Assembly: GCF_003363265.1 (NCBI RefSeq)
Contig: NZ_QRBF01000002.1
Location: forward strand, 566,508 to 630,507
Length of the DNA: 64,000 nucleotides
Direction of reading: 5' to 3'
From: Dyella psychrodurans
Lineage (GTDB): Bacteria > Pseudomonadota > Gammaproteobacteria > Xanthomonadales > Rhodanobacteraceae
Under the pieces are notes generated by a model. It was given only the letters and a program-made list of their open reading frames with translations, had not been told where the DNA came from and made no database searches. This document shows positions 6,182 to 14,475 of the stretch, piece after piece. Numbering within the stretch: the stretch's first letter is position 1; every line of letters begins with the position of its first letter. A program made the translations under genes and the position numbers.

Positions 6182-6210
6182 TTGCGTGGCAGCGAAAATC
6201 CGGTCATGAT
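6182..6210 (+). promoter_or_regulatory. Candidate promoter of the arginine operon
   Basis: TTGCGT (6182-6187) and CATGAT (6205-6210) lie 17 bases apart. They match the sigma-70 consensus at 3/6 and 4/6. The start site would fall near 6217, just before the leader peptide. This is an inference from spacing only. Confidence 0.35.
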
Positions 6211-6235
6211 TAAAGTTCAACCACCCGGAACACCC

Positions 6236-6340
6236 ATGTCCGCAGCCGTCTATACCGCCACCGTTCTTACCAGCGCCCGCATGGCTGCTGGCATGACGTC
6301 GCGTGCGCGCCGACCGCTGGACCGACATTCGGCCGGGTAG
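6236..6340 (+). CDS. Putative arginine-sensing leader peptide (34 aa)
   Basis: A short frame starts at ATG 6236 with GGAA 5 bases upstream and stops at TAG 6338. It has five arginines in 34 residues, four of them within eight codons near the end (RARRPLDR, codons 6302-6325). The frame ends just before an intrinsic terminator at 6374-6401 that lies upstream of argF'. The position, the clustered codons for the operon's end product and the terminator together suggest a leader peptide of the his/trp/thr attenuation kind, here for arginine. The peptide itself has no other recognisable feature. Confidence 0.6.
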   Translation: MSAAVYTATVLTSARMAAGMTSRARRPLDRHSAG

Positions 6341-6401
6341 GCTGTCGCCACGTTGCATGTGTAATACGACGACAAAACCCGGCCTTTGCGCCGGGTTTTT
6401 T
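6309..6401 (+). promoter_or_regulatory. Putative arginine attenuator (1:2, 2:3 and 3:4 hairpins)
   Basis: The terminator is a 10-bp stem (6374-6383 with 6390-6399, loop CTTTGC) whose 3' arm runs into six Ts (6396-6401). Its 5' arm can instead pair with the end of the leader frame: 6331-6338 (GGCCGGGT) is exactly complementary to 6377-6384. A weaker upstream hairpin (6309-6313 with 6329-6333) could hold that segment. A ribosome stalled on the Arg codons would leave 6331-6338 free to form the antiterminator. A ribosome at the stop codon would cover it and allow termination. The pairings are seen in the sequence; the function is inferred. Confidence 0.6.
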
Positions 6402-6424
6402 GCTTTTTCGGACTGGAGTCAACG

Positions 6425-7432
6425 ATGACGCTTCGCCATTTCCTCACTACCCAGGATTACAGCCGTGCCGAGATCGACGCGCTGCTCGAGCAGGCCGCCG
6501 CGTTCAAGCGTTCGCCGCGCGGTCAGCAGCTCGCCGGCAAATCCGTGGCGCTGTTGTTCTTCAATCCGTCGATGCGCACGCGCACGAGTTTCGAACTTGG
6601 CGCTTTCCATCTCGGCGGCCACGCCATCGTGCTGTCGCCCGGCAAGGATGCATGGCCGATCGAATTCCGGCCGAACGTCGTGATGGATGGCGAAGCGGAA
6701 GAGCACATCGCCGAAGTGGCGCGCGTGCTCAGCCGCTATGTGGATCTGATCGCGGTGCGCGCCTTCCCGAAATTCCAGGATTGGTCGATCGATCGCGAAG
6801 ATTCGGTGATCAAGGCTTTCGCGCAATACGCCACGGTGCCGGTGATCAACATGGAGACGATCACGCATCCCTGCCAGGAACTCGCGCATGCGCTGGCGCT
6901 GAAAGAACGCTTTGGCGATCTCACTGGTCGCAAGTACGTGCTCACCTGGACCTATCACCCCAAGCCGCTGAATACGGCGGTGGCGAATTCGGCGCTGCTG
7001 ATCGCCACGAAAATGGGCATGGACGTCACGCTGCTTTGTCCGACGCCGGACTACGTGCTCGACGAGCGCTACATGGCGTTCGGCGAACAAAACGCCAAGG
7101 AAAACGGTGGTTCGCTCAAGGTCAGTCACAACATCGAAGAGGCTTATCGCGGCGCCGATGTGGTCTACGCCAAGAGCTGGGGCGCGTTGCCGTTCTTTGG
7201 TCGTTGGGAAGGCGAGAAGCCTATCCGCGACGCGCACAAGCATTTCATCGTCGACGAAGCGAAGATGGCGCTGACCAACAACGGCGTCTTCAGTCATTGC
7301 CTGCCGCTGCGCAGAAATATCAAGGCGACCGATGCGGTGATGGATTCGCCCGCCTGCATCGCCATCGACGAAGCCGAAAACCGCCTGCACGTGCAGAAGG
7401 CGGTGATGTCGTCGCTGATCGCGCACCGTTGA
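6425..7432 (+). CDS. argF': N-acetylornithine carbamoyltransferase
   Basis: This 335-residue transcarbamylase converts N-acetylornithine plus carbamoyl phosphate to N-acetylcitrulline, as in Xanthomonas. It carries SMRTRTSF (carbamoyl-phosphate site, residues 49-56), the diagnostic Glu92 in EEHIAEV (known in Xanthomonas to set acetylornithine rather than succinylornithine specificity), HPCQELAHAL and HCLPLRRN. Similarity to the Xanthomonas enzyme is very close over the whole length. The start at 6425 has GGAG 7 bases upstream. It is the first enzyme gene of the arginine operon, 24 bases after the attenuator terminator. Confidence 0.96.
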   Translation: MTLRHFLTTQDYSRAEIDALLEQAAAFKRSPRGQQLAGKSVALLFFNPSMRTRTSFELGAFHLGGHAIVLSPGKDAWPIEFRPNVVMDGEAEEHIAEVARVLSRYVDLIAVRAFPKFQDWSIDREDSVIKAFAQYATVPVINMETITHPCQELAHALALKERFGDLTGRKYVLTWTYHPKPLNTAVANSALLIATKMGMDVTLLCPTPDYVLDERYMAFGEQNAKENGGSLKVSHNIEEAYRGADVVYAKSWGALPFFGRWEGEKPIRDAHKHFIVDEAKMALTNNGVFSHCLPLRRNIKATDAVMDSPACIAIDEAENRLHVQKAVMSSLIAHR

Positions 7433-7447
7433 CGCGCAAGGACACGC

Positions 7448-8080
7448 ATGTATCTGCCCAAGTCCTTTCATGAAACGCGCCTCGACGTTTTGCATGCGCT
7501 GATCCGTGCCTATCCGTTCGGCACGGTGGTGATGCACGGCGATGGCGGACTGGCCGCCAACCATCTGCCTTTCGAACTGGCGAGCGACACGATGCTTCAT
7601 GGTCATGTCGCGCGAGGCAACGAACTGGCGAATGCCGATGGCGCGTCTGTACTGGTGATCTTTCAGGCCGCGGATGGCTATATCAGCCCAAATTGGTATC
7701 CGAGCAAGCATGAAACAGGGCGCGAAGTGCCAACATGGAACTACGCCGTCGTCCACGTGCATGGCCGTTTGCGCGTAACCGACGACAAGGCATGGCTGCG
7801 TCAGCTGCTCGAGAAACTGACGGATCGGCACGAAGCAAATCAGCCAACCCCCTGGCATGTCAGCGATGCGCCGGAAGATCACATCGAGAGCATGTTGCGC
7901 CACATCGTGGGCATCGAAATCTCGATCGACCGCATCGAGGGCAAGTTCAAATTGAGCCAGAACCATCCTGACGCGAATCGTGCGGGTGTTCTGAAGGGCC
8001 TGAGCGAGCGCAACAGCCGGCGCGACAGCGAATTATTGGAACTGATGCAACAAGCCGAGGGGCGCCGTCATGGGGGATAA
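7448..8080 (+). CDS. PaiB-like FMN-binding protein
   Basis: This 210-residue protein of the 'FMN-binding negative transcriptional regulator' (PaiB) family opens with MYLPKSFHETRLDVLHALI. It contains LVIFQAADGYISPNWYPSK and VPTWNYAVVHVHG, the split-barrel flavin-binding features. Family members in Bacillus affect sporulation and protease genes; a role in arginine metabolism is unknown. It lies 15 bases after argF' and overlaps the OsmC gene by 11 bases, so it is part of the operon. Confidence 0.88.
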   Translation: MYLPKSFHETRLDVLHALIRAYPFGTVVMHGDGGLAANHLPFELASDTMLHGHVARGNELANADGASVLVIFQAADGYISPNWYPSKHETGREVPTWNYAVVHVHGRLRVTDDKAWLRQLLEKLTDRHEANQPTPWHVSDAPEDHIESMLRHIVGIEISIDRIEGKFKLSQNHPDANRAGVLKGLSERNSRRDSELLELMQQAEGRRHGG

Positions 8081-8546
8081 CCAGCATCTGTATCCGGTCG
8101 AAGTGGTGTGGACCGGCAATCGCGGCAACGGTACCAAGACTTATCAAGGCTACGGTCGTGAGCACGAGGTTCGCGTTGCCGGCAAGCCGGCGATAGCAGG
8201 CTCGTCGGACCCTGTCTTTCGTGGCGATGGCACGAAGCACAATCCGGAAGAATTGCTGGTGGCAGCGCTCTCCAGCTGCCACATGCTGTGGTATTTGCAT
8301 CTGGCTGCGGAGGCGGGGGTCGTCGTCACAGGATATGTCGATTCCGCCGTAGGAACGCTGGCGGAGCACGGCAAAGACGGGCGCTTTACCGAAGTCGTAT
8401 TGAAACCGCTCGTCACGATCACCGCCGACAGCGATCCCGAGCGCGCCGCAAGCGTGCACGAAGACGCCCATCACGCCTGTTTTATTGCCAACTCCGTCAA
8501 TTTCCCGGTGCGCTGCGAGCCTCGCATTGTCATCGAATCTGTGTAA
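8070..8546 (+). CDS. OsmC-family protein
   Basis: This 158-residue OsmC/Ohr-fold protein has the typical [16 protein letters not shown] segment with its reactive Cys. The second Cys comes late ([14 protein letters not shown]). These proteins reduce organic hydroperoxides with paired cysteines; the substrate here is not known. It overlaps the PaiB-like gene by 11 bases and precedes argG by 40 bases. The two genes look like a module inserted between argF' and argG. Confidence 0.88.
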
Positions 8547-8586
8547 ACCCTTTCCTTTTACCGATAGATCTTCTGGACTTCGCATC

Positions 8587-9780
8587 ATGAGCAAAGACAT
8601 CGTTCTCGCTTTTTCCGGTGGCCTCGACACGAGCTTCTGCATCCCGTACCTGCAGGAGCGCGGCTGGGCCGTACACACGGTGTTCGCCGATACCGGCGGT
8701 GTCGACGATGAAGAGCGCGCCTATATCGAGGCGCGCGCCAAGGAGCTCAAGGCAGCCAGCCATGTCACCGTCGATGGCGGTCCGGCGATCTGGAGCGGTT
8801 TCGTCAAGCCGTTCGTATGGGCTGGCGAAGGCTATCAGGGACAGTATCCGTTGCTGGTTTCCGACCGCTACCTGATCGTCGACGCTGCACTCAAGCGTTG
8901 CGCAGAGCTCGGCACCAAGGCGATTGCGCATGGCTGCACGGGCATGGGCAACGATCAGGTTCGCTTCGATCTTGCCGTCAAGGCGCAGGGCGATTACGAG
9001 ATCGTGGCCCCGATCCGCGAAATCCAGAAAGAGCACACCGAAGTACGCGCTTACGAACAGAAGTACCTGGAAAAGCTTGGCTTCGGCGTGCGCGCGAAGC
9101 AGAAGGCCTACACCATCAACGAAAACCTGTTGGGCGTGACGATGTCCGGCGGCGAAATCGACCGCTGGCAGACCCCAGGCGAAGGTGCCATCGGCTGGTG
9201 CAAACCGCGCGCCGAATGGCCGTCCAAACCGCTACGCCTGAAGATCACCTTCGTGAACGGTGAAGCGGTGGCGCTCGACGGCGAAAAGATCGCCGGTCAC
9301 AAGATGCTCGCCAAGCTCAATGGCCTGCTGGCGCAATACGGTGTGGGCCGCGGTATTTACACGGGCGATACCACCATCGGCTTGAAAGGCCGCATCATTT
9401 TCGAAGCGCCCGGTCTGACTGCACTGCTGGTTGCCCACCGTGCCTTGGAAGAAGCCGTGCTCACCAAGCACCAGAACCGTTTCAAACCCGACGTCGCACG
9501 TAAGTGGGTGGAATTGGTTTACGAAGGTTTCTTCCACGATCCTCTCAAAACCGACCTTGAGGCTTTCCTCGCATCGAGCCAGTCGCAGGTCAACGGCGAT
9601 GTGACGCTGGAAACATCCGGCGGCATCATCAATGCGGTTGCCGTGGAATCGAAGCACATCCTCAATGCCAAGGGCGCCACCTACGCGCAGGCCGCCGACT
9701 GGGGCGTGGCGGAAGCGGAAGGCTTCATCAAGCTCTTCGGCATGAGCAGCACCTTGTGGGCCGAGGTCAACCGAGGATGA
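8587..9780 (+). CDS. argG: Argininosuccinate synthase
   Basis: This 397-residue enzyme joins citrulline and aspartate with ATP to give argininosuccinate. The N-terminal pyrophosphatase loop reads [11 protein letters not shown]. Other family blocks are [22 protein letters not shown] and the C-terminal tail. The start at 8587 gives the normal N-terminus; longer in-frame starts read through the OsmC stop region. The stop overlaps the start of argE' (ATGA). In this pathway citrulline comes from deacetylation of acetylcitrulline by the next gene. Confidence 0.96.
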
Positions 9781-10877
9781 GTGCACTGCTGCAGGCCACC
9801 TTGACGCATCTGAAGGCGCTGGTCGGCTACGACACGCGCAACCCGCCGCGCAACATTGGCACGGGCGACATCTTCGATTACCTGCGCGAACACTTGCCGG
9901 GTTTCACGGTGACGGTTAGCGATCATGGCGCCGGTGCGGTGACGATGTATGCCGTGCGCGGCAAGCCGAAATATCTGTTCAACGTACACCTGGATACCGT
10001 GCCCGATTCGCCGCACTGGAAGAGTGACCCGCATGTGCTGCAGGTCGACGGCGATCGTGCCATCGGCCTCGGGGCGTGCGATATCAAAGGCGCGGCGGCA
10101 GCGCTGGTTGCCGTGGCGAACGCCAGCCAGGGCGATCTGGCACTGTTGTTCTCCACCGACGAGGAAGCCAACGACCCGCGTTGCATTGCGGCTTTCCTGA
10201 GCGAAGGACACAACTACGATGCTGTCATCGTTGCCGAGCCGACGAGGTGCGAGGCGGTGCTTGCGCATCGCGGCATTCATTCCGTGCAGATGAGTTTCGC
10301 AGGGCAGGCGGGTCATGCGTCAGGCGAGCAGCGACCCAGCGACAGCGCGTTGCATCAGGCGATCCGTTGGGGTGCGGCGGCGCTCGATTACGTGGATCGT
10401 CAATCGCATGAGCGTTTTGGCGGGCTCACTGGATTGCGCTTCAACATCGGTCGTGTCGAAGGTGGCATCAAGGCCAACATGATCGCGCCAACCGCGGATG
10501 TGCGCTTCGGATTCCGCCCGTTGCCGAGCATGGATCCGGATCATTTGCTCGACACCTTCCGCAGTCTGGTCGAGCCGAAGCCCGCGACGTATACCGAGCT
10601 GTTTCGCGGCATGTCGCTTCCCGCCGGCGATACCGCGACGGCCGAAGCGCGTCGTCTTGCCGCGCGCGATATCGCCGACGAACTGGGCATCCCTGTTGGA
10701 AACGCGGTGAATTTCTGGACCGAGGCCGCCTTGTTTTCGGCGGGTGGCTACATCTCGTTCGTCTATGGCCCGGGAGACATTGCCCAGGCGCATACCGCCG
10801 ACGAATGGGTCGCGCTCGACCAACTGCAAACCTATGTCGACACCATCTACGAGATCGTGAACCGTGGAATCGCATAA
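9777..10877 (+). CDS. argE': Acetylcitrulline/acetylornithine deacetylase (M20 family)
   Basis: This 366-residue zinc-dependent M20 deacetylase shows [10 protein letters not shown] (metal ligands), [19 protein letters not shown] (catalytic and bridging acids) and VAEPTRCE. In Xanthomonas the equivalent enzyme prefers N-acetylcitrulline, completing the route opened by ArgF'. That assignment is by family and context; an acetylornithine preference cannot be excluded from sequence alone. It overlaps argG by 4 bases and argB by 14, consistent with coupled translation. Confidence 0.9.
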
Positions 10878-12180
10878 GAACACCCGCCAGACCATTGTGC
10901 GTCTGCTCTCCGCGATGGGCAGCGCCAAGGAAATCCAGCAGTACCTCAAGCGCTTCTCGCAGCTGGATGCCAAGCGCTTCGCCGTCGTGAAAGTCGGTGG
11001 TGCGGTGCTGCGCGATGAATTGAACGACCTGACTTCTTCGCTCACCTTCCTGCAGCAAGTGGGTCTTACGCCCATCGTGCTGCACGGCGCAGGCCCGCAG
11101 CTGGATGAAGAGCTGCAGGCCGCGGGGATCACCAAACAGACCGTCAACGGCTTGCGCGTCACGTCACCCAAGGCCTTGGGCATCGTGCGCCGCGTTTTCC
11201 AGCAGCAGAACCTGCGGTTGGTTGAAGCGTTGCAGGCCATGGATACGCGCGCCACGTCCGTTCCATCCGGCGTTTTCATGTCCAGCTTTCTGGACAAGGA
11301 TGTCTACGGGATGGTCGGCAAGGTCGATAGCATCAACCTCGCGCCGATCGAGGCGAGTTTGCGCGCCGGGTCGATTCCCGTGATCGCAAGCCTTGGTGAA
11401 ACCGATGAAGGCCAGTTTCTCAACATCAACGCCGACTTCGCCGCCAACGAACTGGTGCGCGTGCTGCAGCCGTACAAGATCGTGTTCCTCACCGGCACGG
11501 GTGGGCTGCTCGACGACAAAGGGCAGGTGATCGACTCCATCAACCTGAGCACCGAGTTCGAGCATCTGATGGCGCAGCCGTGGATCAACGGCGGCATGCG
11601 CGTGAAGATCGAACAGATTGCGGACTTGCTGCAGAGCCTGCCGCTGACGTCTTCCGTGTCGATCACACGTCCGTCGGAGCTCGCCAAGGAGCTGTTCACG
11701 CACAAGGGTTCGGGCACGCTGGTGCGTCGTGGCGAGAGAGTGTTCCGCTTCGAGAGTTGGGAAGGCGTGGATCGTGCGCGCATGCGTACGCTTATCGAGT
11801 CCAGCTTCGGCCGCAAGGTGGTCGACGATTATTTCGAGCGCACGGAGCCTTATCGCATCTACGTGAGTGAAAACTATCGCGCCGCGATGATCCTCACCAA
11901 CGTGGATGGCCTGGTCTATCTCGACAAATTCGCGGTGCTGGACGATGCACAGGGCGAAGGTCTTGGTCGTGCGGTGTGGCTGGTAATGCGCGAGGAAAAT
12001 CCACGCCTGTTCTGGCGTTCGCGCCACGGCAACCAGATCAATCATTTCTATTACTCGGAATCCGACGGTTGCTACAAGCAGGAACGCTGGAAGGTGTTCT
12101 GGTACGGCCTGGACGATTTCGACACGATCGCTCGTTGCGTCGAACATTGCGCCGTGCGACAACCTACATTGGTGGATTGA
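10864..12180 (+). CDS. argB: Bifunctional N-acetylglutamate kinase/synthase
   Basis: This 438-residue fusion has an amino-acid-kinase domain (about 1-285: [48 protein letters not shown]) followed by a GNAT-fold synthase domain (about 290-438: [40 protein letters not shown]). This is the Xanthomonas NAGS/K type, related to vertebrate NAGS, so one protein does the first two steps of arginine synthesis. The GTG at 10864 is chosen because its N-terminus ([18 protein letters not shown]) matches the family; it lies inside the end of argE'. Confidence 0.94.
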
Positions 12181-12186
12181 GCAGTC

Positions 12187-13140
12187 ATGGGCACATCGAG
12201 AAAACGCATCGGTATTGTCGGCGCACGCGGCCACACGGGCGCCGAGCTGATTCGCCTTGTTGTCGCGCATCCCGATCTGGAACTGGCCTACGTTTCGTCA
12301 CGCGAACTGGACGGCCAGCGTGTGGACGCGCATGTTTCCGAGTACCGGGGCGATCTGCGTTACAGCTCACCGGCGCATGAGGATCTGCCAGGTCTGGATG
12401 CCGATGTCGTCGTGCTTGCCTTGCCCAATGGCAAGGCGTCGGTATGCGTCGAGGCATTCGATGCGGCTGGCAAGGATCCGGTGATCGTCGACCTGTCCGC
12501 CGATTATCGCTTCGACAGCAAGTGGTATTACGGCCTGCCGGAGCTGACACGCGACAAGTGGCGTGGCGAGAAACGGATCAGCAATCCGGGTTGTTACGCC
12601 ACGGCGATCCAACTTTCCATCGCGCCGTTGAAAGATTTGCTCGCCGCGCCACCGGTGTGCTTCGGCGTATCGGGTTATTCGGGTGCAGGCACGACGCCCT
12701 CGGACAAGAACAATCCCGAGAAGCTGCGCGACAACCTGATGCCGTATTCGCTGACAGGTCACACGCACGAAAAGGAGGCCAGCCGACACCTCGGTATCCC
12801 GGTGGAATTCATGCCGCATGTGGCGCCGCACTTTCGCGGTCTGACGGTGACCACCAATCTGTACTTGTCGCGTCCGCTAAAGCGCGAGGATGTGCAGGCG
12901 CGCTTCCAGCATGCTTACGGTGCTGAAAAGCTGGTCCGTGTGCTCGACGAAGCGCCATGGGTCAGCCAGGTCGCCGGCAAGCATCACGCCGAGGTCGGTG
13001 GCTTCGCGATGTCCGACGATGGCAAGCGTGTGGTCGTCGTCGCCACGCTGGACAACCTGCTCAAGGGCGCCGCGACCCAGGCCATGCAGAACATCAATCG
13101 CGCCATCGGCACGAATGAATACACATCGATCCCGCTGTAA
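12187..13140 (+). CDS. argC: N-acetyl-gamma-glutamyl-phosphate reductase
   Basis: This 317-residue NADPH-dependent reductase catalyses the third step of arginine synthesis. It has the Rossmann start [15 protein letters not shown], catalytic Cys136 in SNPGCYATA, and [10 protein letters not shown]. It begins 6 bases after argB. The adjacency argB-argC matches Xanthomonas operons. Length and motifs are normal. Confidence 0.95.
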
Positions 13141-13176
13141 CAAAGCAATTCATCGCTGCGACAAGAGACATAAATC

Positions 13177-14475
13177 ATGAGCGATCTCCTTTGGCAAAAA
13201 GCCGGCGTCGAAACCAACGCCAAAATCATGAAATTCCTGGCTGGCGACGACGTGCTGCTGGATCGCGAGTTTTTCCTGAACGACATTGCAGCCAGCAAGG
13301 CGCATGTGGAGGGATTGGCTAATATCGGTGTGGTGAGCGCGGGGGAGATGCAGGACCTAAAGCGCGAACTCGACGCGCTGGCAGAGGATTTTCGTGCGGG
13401 CAGATTTGTTCTGGACGAGCGTTACGAAGACGGCCACTCGGCCATTGAAGCGCGGCTCACCGACCGACTCGGCGATGCAGGGCGTCGCGTGCACACGGGG
13501 CGCAGCCGCAACGATCAGATTCTTGTCGCCACGCGTCTGTGGCTGAAGGACAAGCTTGCCGTACTCGAAACGCATTGCCGCGCGATAGCGGAAGTGTGTT
13601 TGCAACGCGCTTCGCAGCCGGCCATTCCCCTGCCGGGCTACACGCATCTGCAACGTGCGGTGGTGTCGTCCACGGCTATGTGGTTTGCCGGCTTTGCGGA
13701 GGGCTTCATCGATAACGCTTGGCGCGCACGGCAGACGGCGGCGTGGATCGATGCCAATCCGCTTGGTACGGCGGCTGGGTATGGCGTAAATCTGCCTCTC
13801 GACCGTGCGCATACGACACAGGTGCTGGGTTTTTCGCGCATGCAGATTTCGCCGATCTACGCCCAGCTGTCGCGCGGCAAATTCGAAATGGCGGTGATGG
13901 AGGCGCTGAGCAGCGCGATGCTCGATGCACGCCGCCTCGCCTGGGATCTCTCGCTTTTCACTACCGCGGAATTCAATTTCGTATCGCTGCCTGCCGAGTA
14001 CACCACGGGCAGTTCGATCATGCCGAACAAGCGCAACCCCGACGTGGTGGAACTGCTGCGCGCTTCGTATGCCACGGTAGCGGCTTCGCGTTGCGAAATC
14101 GAGCAGCTTTTGTCGTTGCCGTCCGGCTATCAGCGCGATCTGCAATTTTCCAAGGGATCGTTGTTCCACGGCGTGACACATGGGCTTGCCGCGCTCGAAC
14201 TGATGCCGGATCTGCTCGCCCGCATGCAATGGAACGAGTCCGCCATGCGCGCGGCGATCGAGCCGGCGATGTACGCGACCGATGTCGCGATCGAGCAGGC
14301 CGCTGCGGGCGTGCCGTTCCGCGATGCCTATCGCGCTGCCGCGCAGGCGGCGACTGCGGCGGGGCAGGGGCGCACGCCTGAGGTCAGTCTAGCCGCGCGC
14401 ACCTCGCCTGGGGCCGGCAGCGAATTGTTGCTGGATGTGCTCAAGCAACGCCTCGCAGAACTGTCACGGTCGTAA
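13177..14475 (+). CDS. argH: Argininosuccinate lyase
   Basis: This 432-residue member of the fumarase/aspartase superfamily splits argininosuccinate to arginine and fumarate. It carries [10 protein letters not shown], the TH pair in GYTHLQRA and the signature [12 protein letters not shown] (about residues 278-289). It begins 36 bases after argC. N- and C-termini fit the family, so the gene is intact. Confidence 0.95.

Follow-up and report, generated by a model that had tools for sequence, protein, structure and literature searches.

The leader before argF', the gene for N-acetylornithine carbamoyltransferase, in a 64,000-nucleotide (nt) stretch of Dyella psychrodurans DNA (Gammaproteobacteria, Xanthomonadales, Rhodanobacteraceae; contig NZ_QRBF01000002.1, positions 566,508 to 630,507; hereafter the window) is, with a probability of about 0.85, a ribosome-mediated transcription attenuator that senses arginyl-tRNA and controls the arginine operon. 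Its open reading frame (ORF), at 6236-6340, comprises 34 codons and TAG with the predicted product MSAAVYTATVLTSARMAAGMTSRARRPLDRHSAG, and carries four Arg codons within 6302-6325 (CGT 6302, CGC 6308, CGA 6311 and CGA 6323). The segment 6331-6338 (GGCCGGGT), near the end of the ORF, is exactly complementary to 6377-6384 (ACCCGGCC) in the terminator that follows. A preliminary description of the window had proposed attenuation of the trp/his type at this place; re-reading of the sequence confirmed its coordinates throughout (frame, four Arg codons, pairing and its exactness, terminator, argF' start at 6425) and gives the hairpin itself as 6374-6399. The features of the leader are as follows.

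6236-6340, + strand: leader ORF, 34 codons and TAG (from translation, relatives and codon-level selection)
6275-6313, + strand: peptide core A-x-x-A-[AST]-G-M-T-S-R-A-R-R, codons 14-26 (181 distinct sequences)
6302-6313, + strand: putative sensor codons R23 CGT, (A24 GCG), R25 CGC and R26 CGA (R26 is CGA in 178 of 181)
6331-6338, + strand: predicted antiterminator segment, which pairs with 6377-6384 and covers the final two leader codons, reaching one base into the stop codon
6374-6405, + strand: predicted intrinsic terminator, hairpin 6374-6399 followed by a T-run (terminator scan, pairing comparison)
6425-7432, + strand: argF', N-acetylornithine carbamoyltransferase, first gene behind the putative switch (NF003384, 605.1 bits, cut-off 288)

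Conservation of the leader peptide

We collected 80 named loci using argF' only (the best 80 of 561), mostly from Dyella, Rhodanobacter, Frateuria and Luteibacter. Upstream of argF', all 80 have the core A-x-x-A-[AST]-G-M-T-S-R-A-R-R, in 34 distinct DNA versions. A DNA search matched the leader in 142 of 147 genomes of family f1; the labels f1-f12 were assigned by the search tool and are not taxon names, and, going by the named loci and the matches to Rfam, we infer that f1 is Rhodanobacteraceae and f2 Xanthomonadaceae. Among the five unmatched f1 genomes, G056 has the leader before argF', and G100, G107, G132 and G138 give no full-length argF' match, G100 having an 87% fragment at a contig edge. 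A peptide profile, run on 200 genomes of the order, found the leader in 35 of 35 f2 genomes at an E value of 5e-7 or better, in three of three f3 genomes, and in seven of ten f4 genomes at 1e-4 or better; a divergent copy lies immediately upstream of argF' in the f4 genome G149 (E 0.03), and argF' is at a contig edge in G195 and G213. Across 274 genomes of the class, the profile matched only three members of the order and gave two weak hits, in G490 and G488, with no adjoining argF'. The core-like stretch of G490 is flanked, as judged by eye, by apparent carrier-protein and large-synthase genes and was taken as a chance match.

The core pattern was tested on 207 loci (the window, L001-L170 and L229-L264); all 207 match, yielding 181 distinct sequences, and argF' was found in the locus for 181 of 181. 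Four further loci, L265-L268, were excluded because they lack argF', and L271 and L281, outside the count, retain A14, A17 and MTSRARR. Conservation of the frame and of the Arg-codon run in relatives, on which the preliminary description had made its proposal depend, thus holds in the 80 named loci and in the 181 distinct sequences, with one correction: R23, R25 and R26 are conserved, and the fourth Arg, R30, varies.

We counted codon changes by parsimony on the argF' tree of the 181 sequences. Residues A14, A17, M20, T21, S22, R23, A24, R25 and R26 have undergone no amino-acid change at all, along with 8, 44, 0, 51, 2, 29, 19, 36 and 2 third-position changes, respectively; counted over codon positions 1/2/3, the changes are 0/0/44 at A17, 0/0/51 at T21, 0/0/29 at R23 and 0/0/36 at R25. 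G19 has a single amino-acid change and P27 is nearly invariant, while residues 2-11 and 28-32 have 26 to 79 changes and the peptide is variable past P27. The start codon is ATG or GTG at the same position in 155 of 171 loci, and the N-terminus is variable. Variation confined to third positions in the core codons shows, at the level of sequence comparison, that the leader frame is translated and that its peptide matters. An internal start at M20 is unlikely, as A17, upstream of M20, has its 44 third-position changes without an amino-acid change. The invariance of the peptide itself in f1-f4 suggests, as the least certain of these conclusions, a stall-prone nascent chain, and amino-acid conservation ends, as in an arrest peptide, at the putative arrest site RARR. 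A Pfam scan of the leader peptide, at 34 residues a short query for such a scan, found no family at E 0.1, DUF2618 included.

Codon usage at the putative sensor

The codon for R26 is CGA in 178 of the 181 distinct sequences, with CGA as the next codon in two of the three exceptions, and in 80 of the 80 loci fetched with argF'. Twelve window genes contain 331 Arg codons, of which 14 are CGA. At R23 and R25, 361 of 362 codons are CGC or CGT and none is CGG; CGG occurs 12 times at the less conserved R15. CGU, CGC and CGA are decoded by one inosine-bearing tRNA-Arg. Two further codons are nearly fixed, S22 as TCG in 178 of 181 (listed at 6296-6298) and P27 as CCG in 170 of 181 (6314-6316), among neighbours that vary at third positions.

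Antiterminator and terminator

In all 181 sequences, we located the two terminator arms and the best 7-nt antiterminator. Standard pairs number 1237 of 1267 for the antiterminator and 1266 of 1267 for the terminator, the means after re-dealing are 1211 and 1225, and none of 1000 re-dealings was as good. The compensatory changes that the preliminary description had called for, between 6331-6338 and 6377-6384 and their homologues, are present: a C-G-C triplet over the three segments has become T-A-T jointly on two tree branches, one of 27 sequences and one of three. Only L234 on the three-sequence branch retains the usual antiterminator; there is one reversal, in L253, and L254, L263 and L264 have a G-U pair at the triplet position. 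The comparison shows that the predicted antiterminator and terminator share one arm and hence are mutually exclusive.

In 178 of the 179 sequences with a parsed terminator, the start of the antiterminator falls 13 to 21 nt past the R26 codon (at +17 in 106 and +18 in 39), L105 and L167 having no terminator under the geometry filter. Relative to R26, the stop codon ends anywhere between +6 and +30, which puts the stop 3 to 27 nt beyond that codon. In the 26 sequences in which that end is not at +27 (for example L120, L137, L232, L234, L237, L257, L258 and L262), the RNA segment stays near its usual place, with a standard deviation of 2.0 nt measured from RARR and 7.0 nt measured from the stop. 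We therefore rejected an antiterminator anchored on the stop codon, since it tracks RARR more closely; and because the RNA segment holds its place as the stop shifts, the common A-G-stop ending looks like a signal carried by the RNA rather than by the peptide. The trp/his-type logic of the preliminary description finds support, with two amendments: the antiterminator is tied to RARR more closely than to the stop, and the peptide itself is invariant in the clade.

Chance is not negligible in the window sequence alone, in which the arrangement could still be a coincidence. Shuffled 701-base regions contain 0.9 terminator-like sites each, 15 of 2000 spacer shuffles equal the antiterminator score, and the fold of the whole window leader is not unusual against shuffles (z -0.89). 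What takes the case beyond chance is peptide-level conservation in 181 distinct sequences together with coordinated changes across three RNA segments.

Relation to Rfam RF02242

The window leader overlaps a match to RF02242 (sRNA-Xoo5) at 6234-6359, at 28.7 bits against a cut-off of 50 (E 4e-4); no Rfam family reaches its gathering score within the window. In f1, 62 of 147 genomes match RF02242 at E 1e-3 or better, two of them above the cut-off, and 62 of the 63 matches in the f1 sample overlap the hit of the leader DNA search. The best RF02242 match is above the cut-off in eight of 12 chosen f2 genomes, and a rescan of six such loci (L239-L242, L245 and L250) took all of them to the cut-off. 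Two alignments place the leader AUG at positions 3-5 of the RF02242 consensus. The family is filed as "Gene; sRNA", and its model ends before the terminator and names neither ORF nor operon.

In the accessible part of the original report, Xanthomonas oryzae sRNA-Xoo5 is flanked by PXO_00354 and PXO_00353, of which the second is an N-acetylornithine carbamoyltransferase; rapid amplification of cDNA ends gave the 5' end of the RNA, and Northern blots from rich medium showed bands of ~130 and ~100 nt, the longer in early growth only (PMC3039613). If the Rfam model keeps that end, the X. oryzae RNA starts 2 nt before the leader AUG, and not downstream of the leader stop (6340 in the window), the placement that the preliminary description had named as fatal to its proposal. 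Judged from these matches, the Xoo5 RNA of RF02242 and the argF' leader are one and the same, and the entry appears to be wrong in both its type and its 3' boundary.

Leaders and ArgR in other families

We fetched 40 argF' upstream regions from families f4 (G149 only) to f11, of which 34 were readable; L303, L304, L307, L309, L317 and L318 contained too little of argF' for placement and were not used. In 25 of the 34 there is an ORF in which a stretch of seven codons includes four or more Arg, compared with 3.9 expected from local shuffles. Examples are ...SPIRRRRRRDPALAG..., ...AALRRRRRSSQRRAG and ...AVVVRRRRPVKR...; near-identical ones aside, these peptides have, by eye, little in common beyond the Arg run. 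The nine regions below the mark include L281, which is of the frozen type (the invariant core of f1-f4), and L294, L308 and L314, with three Arg each; L292 and L311 have AGG/AGA frames that we judged untrustworthy, and L282, L298 and L310 (f6, f10) have argF' without a visible arginine leader. Arg-codon counts in the 18 leaders that have both four or more Arg and a scored antiterminator are CGC 43, CGA 31, CGT 18, CGG 2 and AGG 1; in these leaders the antiterminator begins 6-38 nt past the last Arg, at 10-18 nt in 14 of the 18. The plain leaders often resemble the frozen peptide in having Arg followed at once by Pro (RRP; L288, L289, L291, L300-L302, L306, L319 and L320).

The genome search for argR that the preliminary description had recommended found none in 59 f1 genomes, the window's own included, with a search whose control was positive in 9 of 14 known genomes. 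ArgR (PF01316) is present in eight of 151 genomes of the order, all of them f12, a family whose best matches to argF' are much weaker (E 1e-60 to 2e-74, with none in one genome). On our reading, ArgR belongs to f12, Arg-run attenuators to f5 and f7-f11, and the frozen peptide to f1-f4; the order of these events is one that we infer.

Proposed mechanism and alternatives

The leader combines the marks of an attenuator: mutually exclusive hairpins with compensatory changes, a distance from stall codon to antiterminator that fits a ribosome footprint of the usual size, end-product codons at the putative stall site, and a leader, translated as judged from selection, before a biosynthetic operon. 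In the proposed mechanism, scarce arginyl-tRNA would stall the ribosome at R23-R26, chiefly at CGA, which is rare. The leading edge of a ribosome stalled with R26 in its A or P site would, for the usual footprint, lie just short of 6331; the segment 6331-6338 would then be free to pair with 6377-6384, no terminator would form, and argF' to argH would be transcribed. With plentiful arginyl-tRNA, the ribosome would proceed and cover 6331-6338, as it also would at the stop codon, the terminator would form, and transcription would end near 6405. Least certain is the further step that the invariant AxxA.GMTS before RARR may render the nascent chain stall-prone and so sharpen the response.

Several observations weigh against this mechanism. 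The rarity of CGA is estimated from 12 window genes only. Loci L081-L170 and L229-L264 were retrieved via the leader itself, with a pattern that requires MTSR.RR, so that invariance in them is partly selected; the 80 loci fetched with argF' are free of this bias and agree. The re-dealing control ignores relatedness. L252 and L259 pair in a shifted register, L263 and L264 pair more weakly, and L162 has its antiterminator outside the usual place. An anti-antiterminator (1:2) hairpin between the RARR codons and the antiterminator is no better than shuffles (mean z -0.19 and +0.21); such a hairpin is found in the trp and his attenuators and is not required of every attenuator. Equilibrium favours the terminator state (-29.4 versus about -24.5 kcal/mol), so that antitermination would have to be kinetic. 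Finally, the reported X. oryzae RNA, at 124 nt and ~130/~100 nt on Northern blots, is shorter than the roughly 155-165 nt expected for a terminated leader; the 124-nt form would end about 3-5 nt short of the terminator hairpin, whose end falls at 155-159 nt, and the mismatch possibly reflects trimming or an incomplete clone.

The invariance of the core admits a stronger interpretation, which we hold tentatively and at somewhat less than even odds: in what we take to be Rhodanobacteraceae, Xanthomonadaceae and two sister families, an Arg-run attenuator may have evolved into an arginine-specific arrest peptide. AxxA.GMTSRARR would then arrest the ribosome at RARR by tunnel contacts together with slow CGA decoding, and three codons would suffice to sense arginine sharply. 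It is a good deal less likely that the nascent chain, and not tRNA charging, is the sensor, with free arginine, N-acetylornithine or another metabolite recognized in the exit tunnel, much as SpeFL responds to ornithine, TnaC to tryptophan and the fungal arginine attenuator peptide to arginine. The non-Arg residues A14, A17, M20, T21, S22 and A24 are as invariant as the Arg residues, change is free past P27, and the A-G-stop ending tracks RNA pairing, all as a metabolite-sensing peptide would have it; CGA at R26, the absence of CGG at R23 and R25 and the plain Arg-run leaders elsewhere point instead to tRNA. Moreover, arrest induced by arginine at RARR would turn the operon on with arginine, the wrong sign, and a precursor would fit better.

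The remaining alternatives have far lower probabilities. That Xoo5 is a trans-acting small RNA merely located before argF' agrees with its Rfam type and with its naming in the accessible part of PMC3039613, and is made very improbable by the codon structure along the RNA, by argF' in 181 of 181 loci, and by the shared terminator arm with its coordinated changes; the Xoo5 RNA may nonetheless have a second role in trans. A leader peptide acting in trans as a small protein, for which the accessible part of PMC7298713 offers a precedent in peTrpL, would account for the invariant core, yet we consider it equally remote: the tail varies (stop at +6 to +30), the core stops where the ribosome would be expected to stall, and, among the matches listed for the window genome, those of the profile outside the argF' locus do not rise above noise (E 0.037 and weaker). 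Least credible of all is a metabolite riboswitch, or simply a terminator of the upstream gene, with an accidental frame. A strong intergenic hairpin in a region conserved as DNA could suggest either, but there is no Rfam match at the gathering score, most core codons vary at third positions only, and the antiterminator tracks the Arg codons.

Gene row and promoter

The leader and its terminator are followed by eight adjacent genes on the same strand, six of them for arginine, and from this adjacency we take argF' to argH as one operon. The flanking features are as follows.

6182-6210, + strand: predicted promoter-like sequence TTGCGT-17-CATGAT, 25 nt upstream of the leader ATG
7448-14475, + strand: FMN_bind_2 gene, OsmC-like gene, argG, acetylornithine deacetylase, acetylglutamate kinase, argC and argH (by adjacency)

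Two genes, one FMN-binding (PF04299) and one OsmC-like, stand inside the arginine gene row between argF' and argG (7448-8546). A predicted promoter scoring at least 7 lies exactly 25 nt before the start codon in 68 of 145 distinct f1 sequences, and a stricter promoter scan found none at the window locus. In raw counts taken without a shuffle control on loci L229-L264 and L281-L320, 29 of 35 sequences from f2-f4 and 16 of 28 others have a promoter-like site that ends only 6-10 nt ahead of the leader start; at that distance the leader mRNA is predicted to be nearly leaderless, compared with the 25-nt gap in the window.

Comparison with known systems

A literature search, in which subscription journals are thinly covered, found no account of the argF' leader and no report of an attenuator of an arginine biosynthetic operon. 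The words "arginine" and "argF" are absent from the accessible main text of the attenuator survey PMC2965389, and the accessible parts of PMC8632094, PMC5343134, PMC4619228 and PMC4997734 do not describe the argF' leader; the last of these credits P. aeruginosa carA with a leader peptide and with possible attenuation in response to pyrimidines. The proposed attenuator would explain how arginine synthesis is controlled in bacteria without ArgR, and would correct the annotation of an Rfam "small RNA" (RF02242). It would also provide a natural series on one operon, from plain Arg-run leaders to a frozen, possibly arresting peptide, in which the origin of arrest peptides is directly testable. If the arrest interpretation is true, bacteria would have an arrest peptide that serves arginine biosynthesis, with its unspecialised form still found in other families of the order.

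The putative argF' attenuator resembles the trp, his, leu, thr, phe and ilv attenuators in having leader codons for the product amino acid, an antiterminator and a terminator with a shared arm, and a biosynthetic operon downstream; it differs from the trp/his type in that the amino acid is arginine, that a 1:2 hairpin lacks support, and that three sensor codons are embedded in an invariant peptide (f1-f4). The fungal arginine attenuator peptide and TnaC likewise link a conserved nascent peptide to amino-acid supply, but they arrest at the stop codon on the free amino acid, whereas here the stop lies 3-27 nt past R26. RF02242 and the argF' leader are homologous RNAs, the former classed as a small RNA gene. 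According to the accessible part of PMC6386406, Salmonella orf34/SpeFL, before speF, is also a short ORF with consecutive Arg codons and a conserved peptide in which pausing at low arginine refolds the RNA; in contrast to the argF' leader, it governs putrescine synthesis, acts via Rho, ribosome-binding-site access and RNase G, and encodes a peptide of DUF2618.
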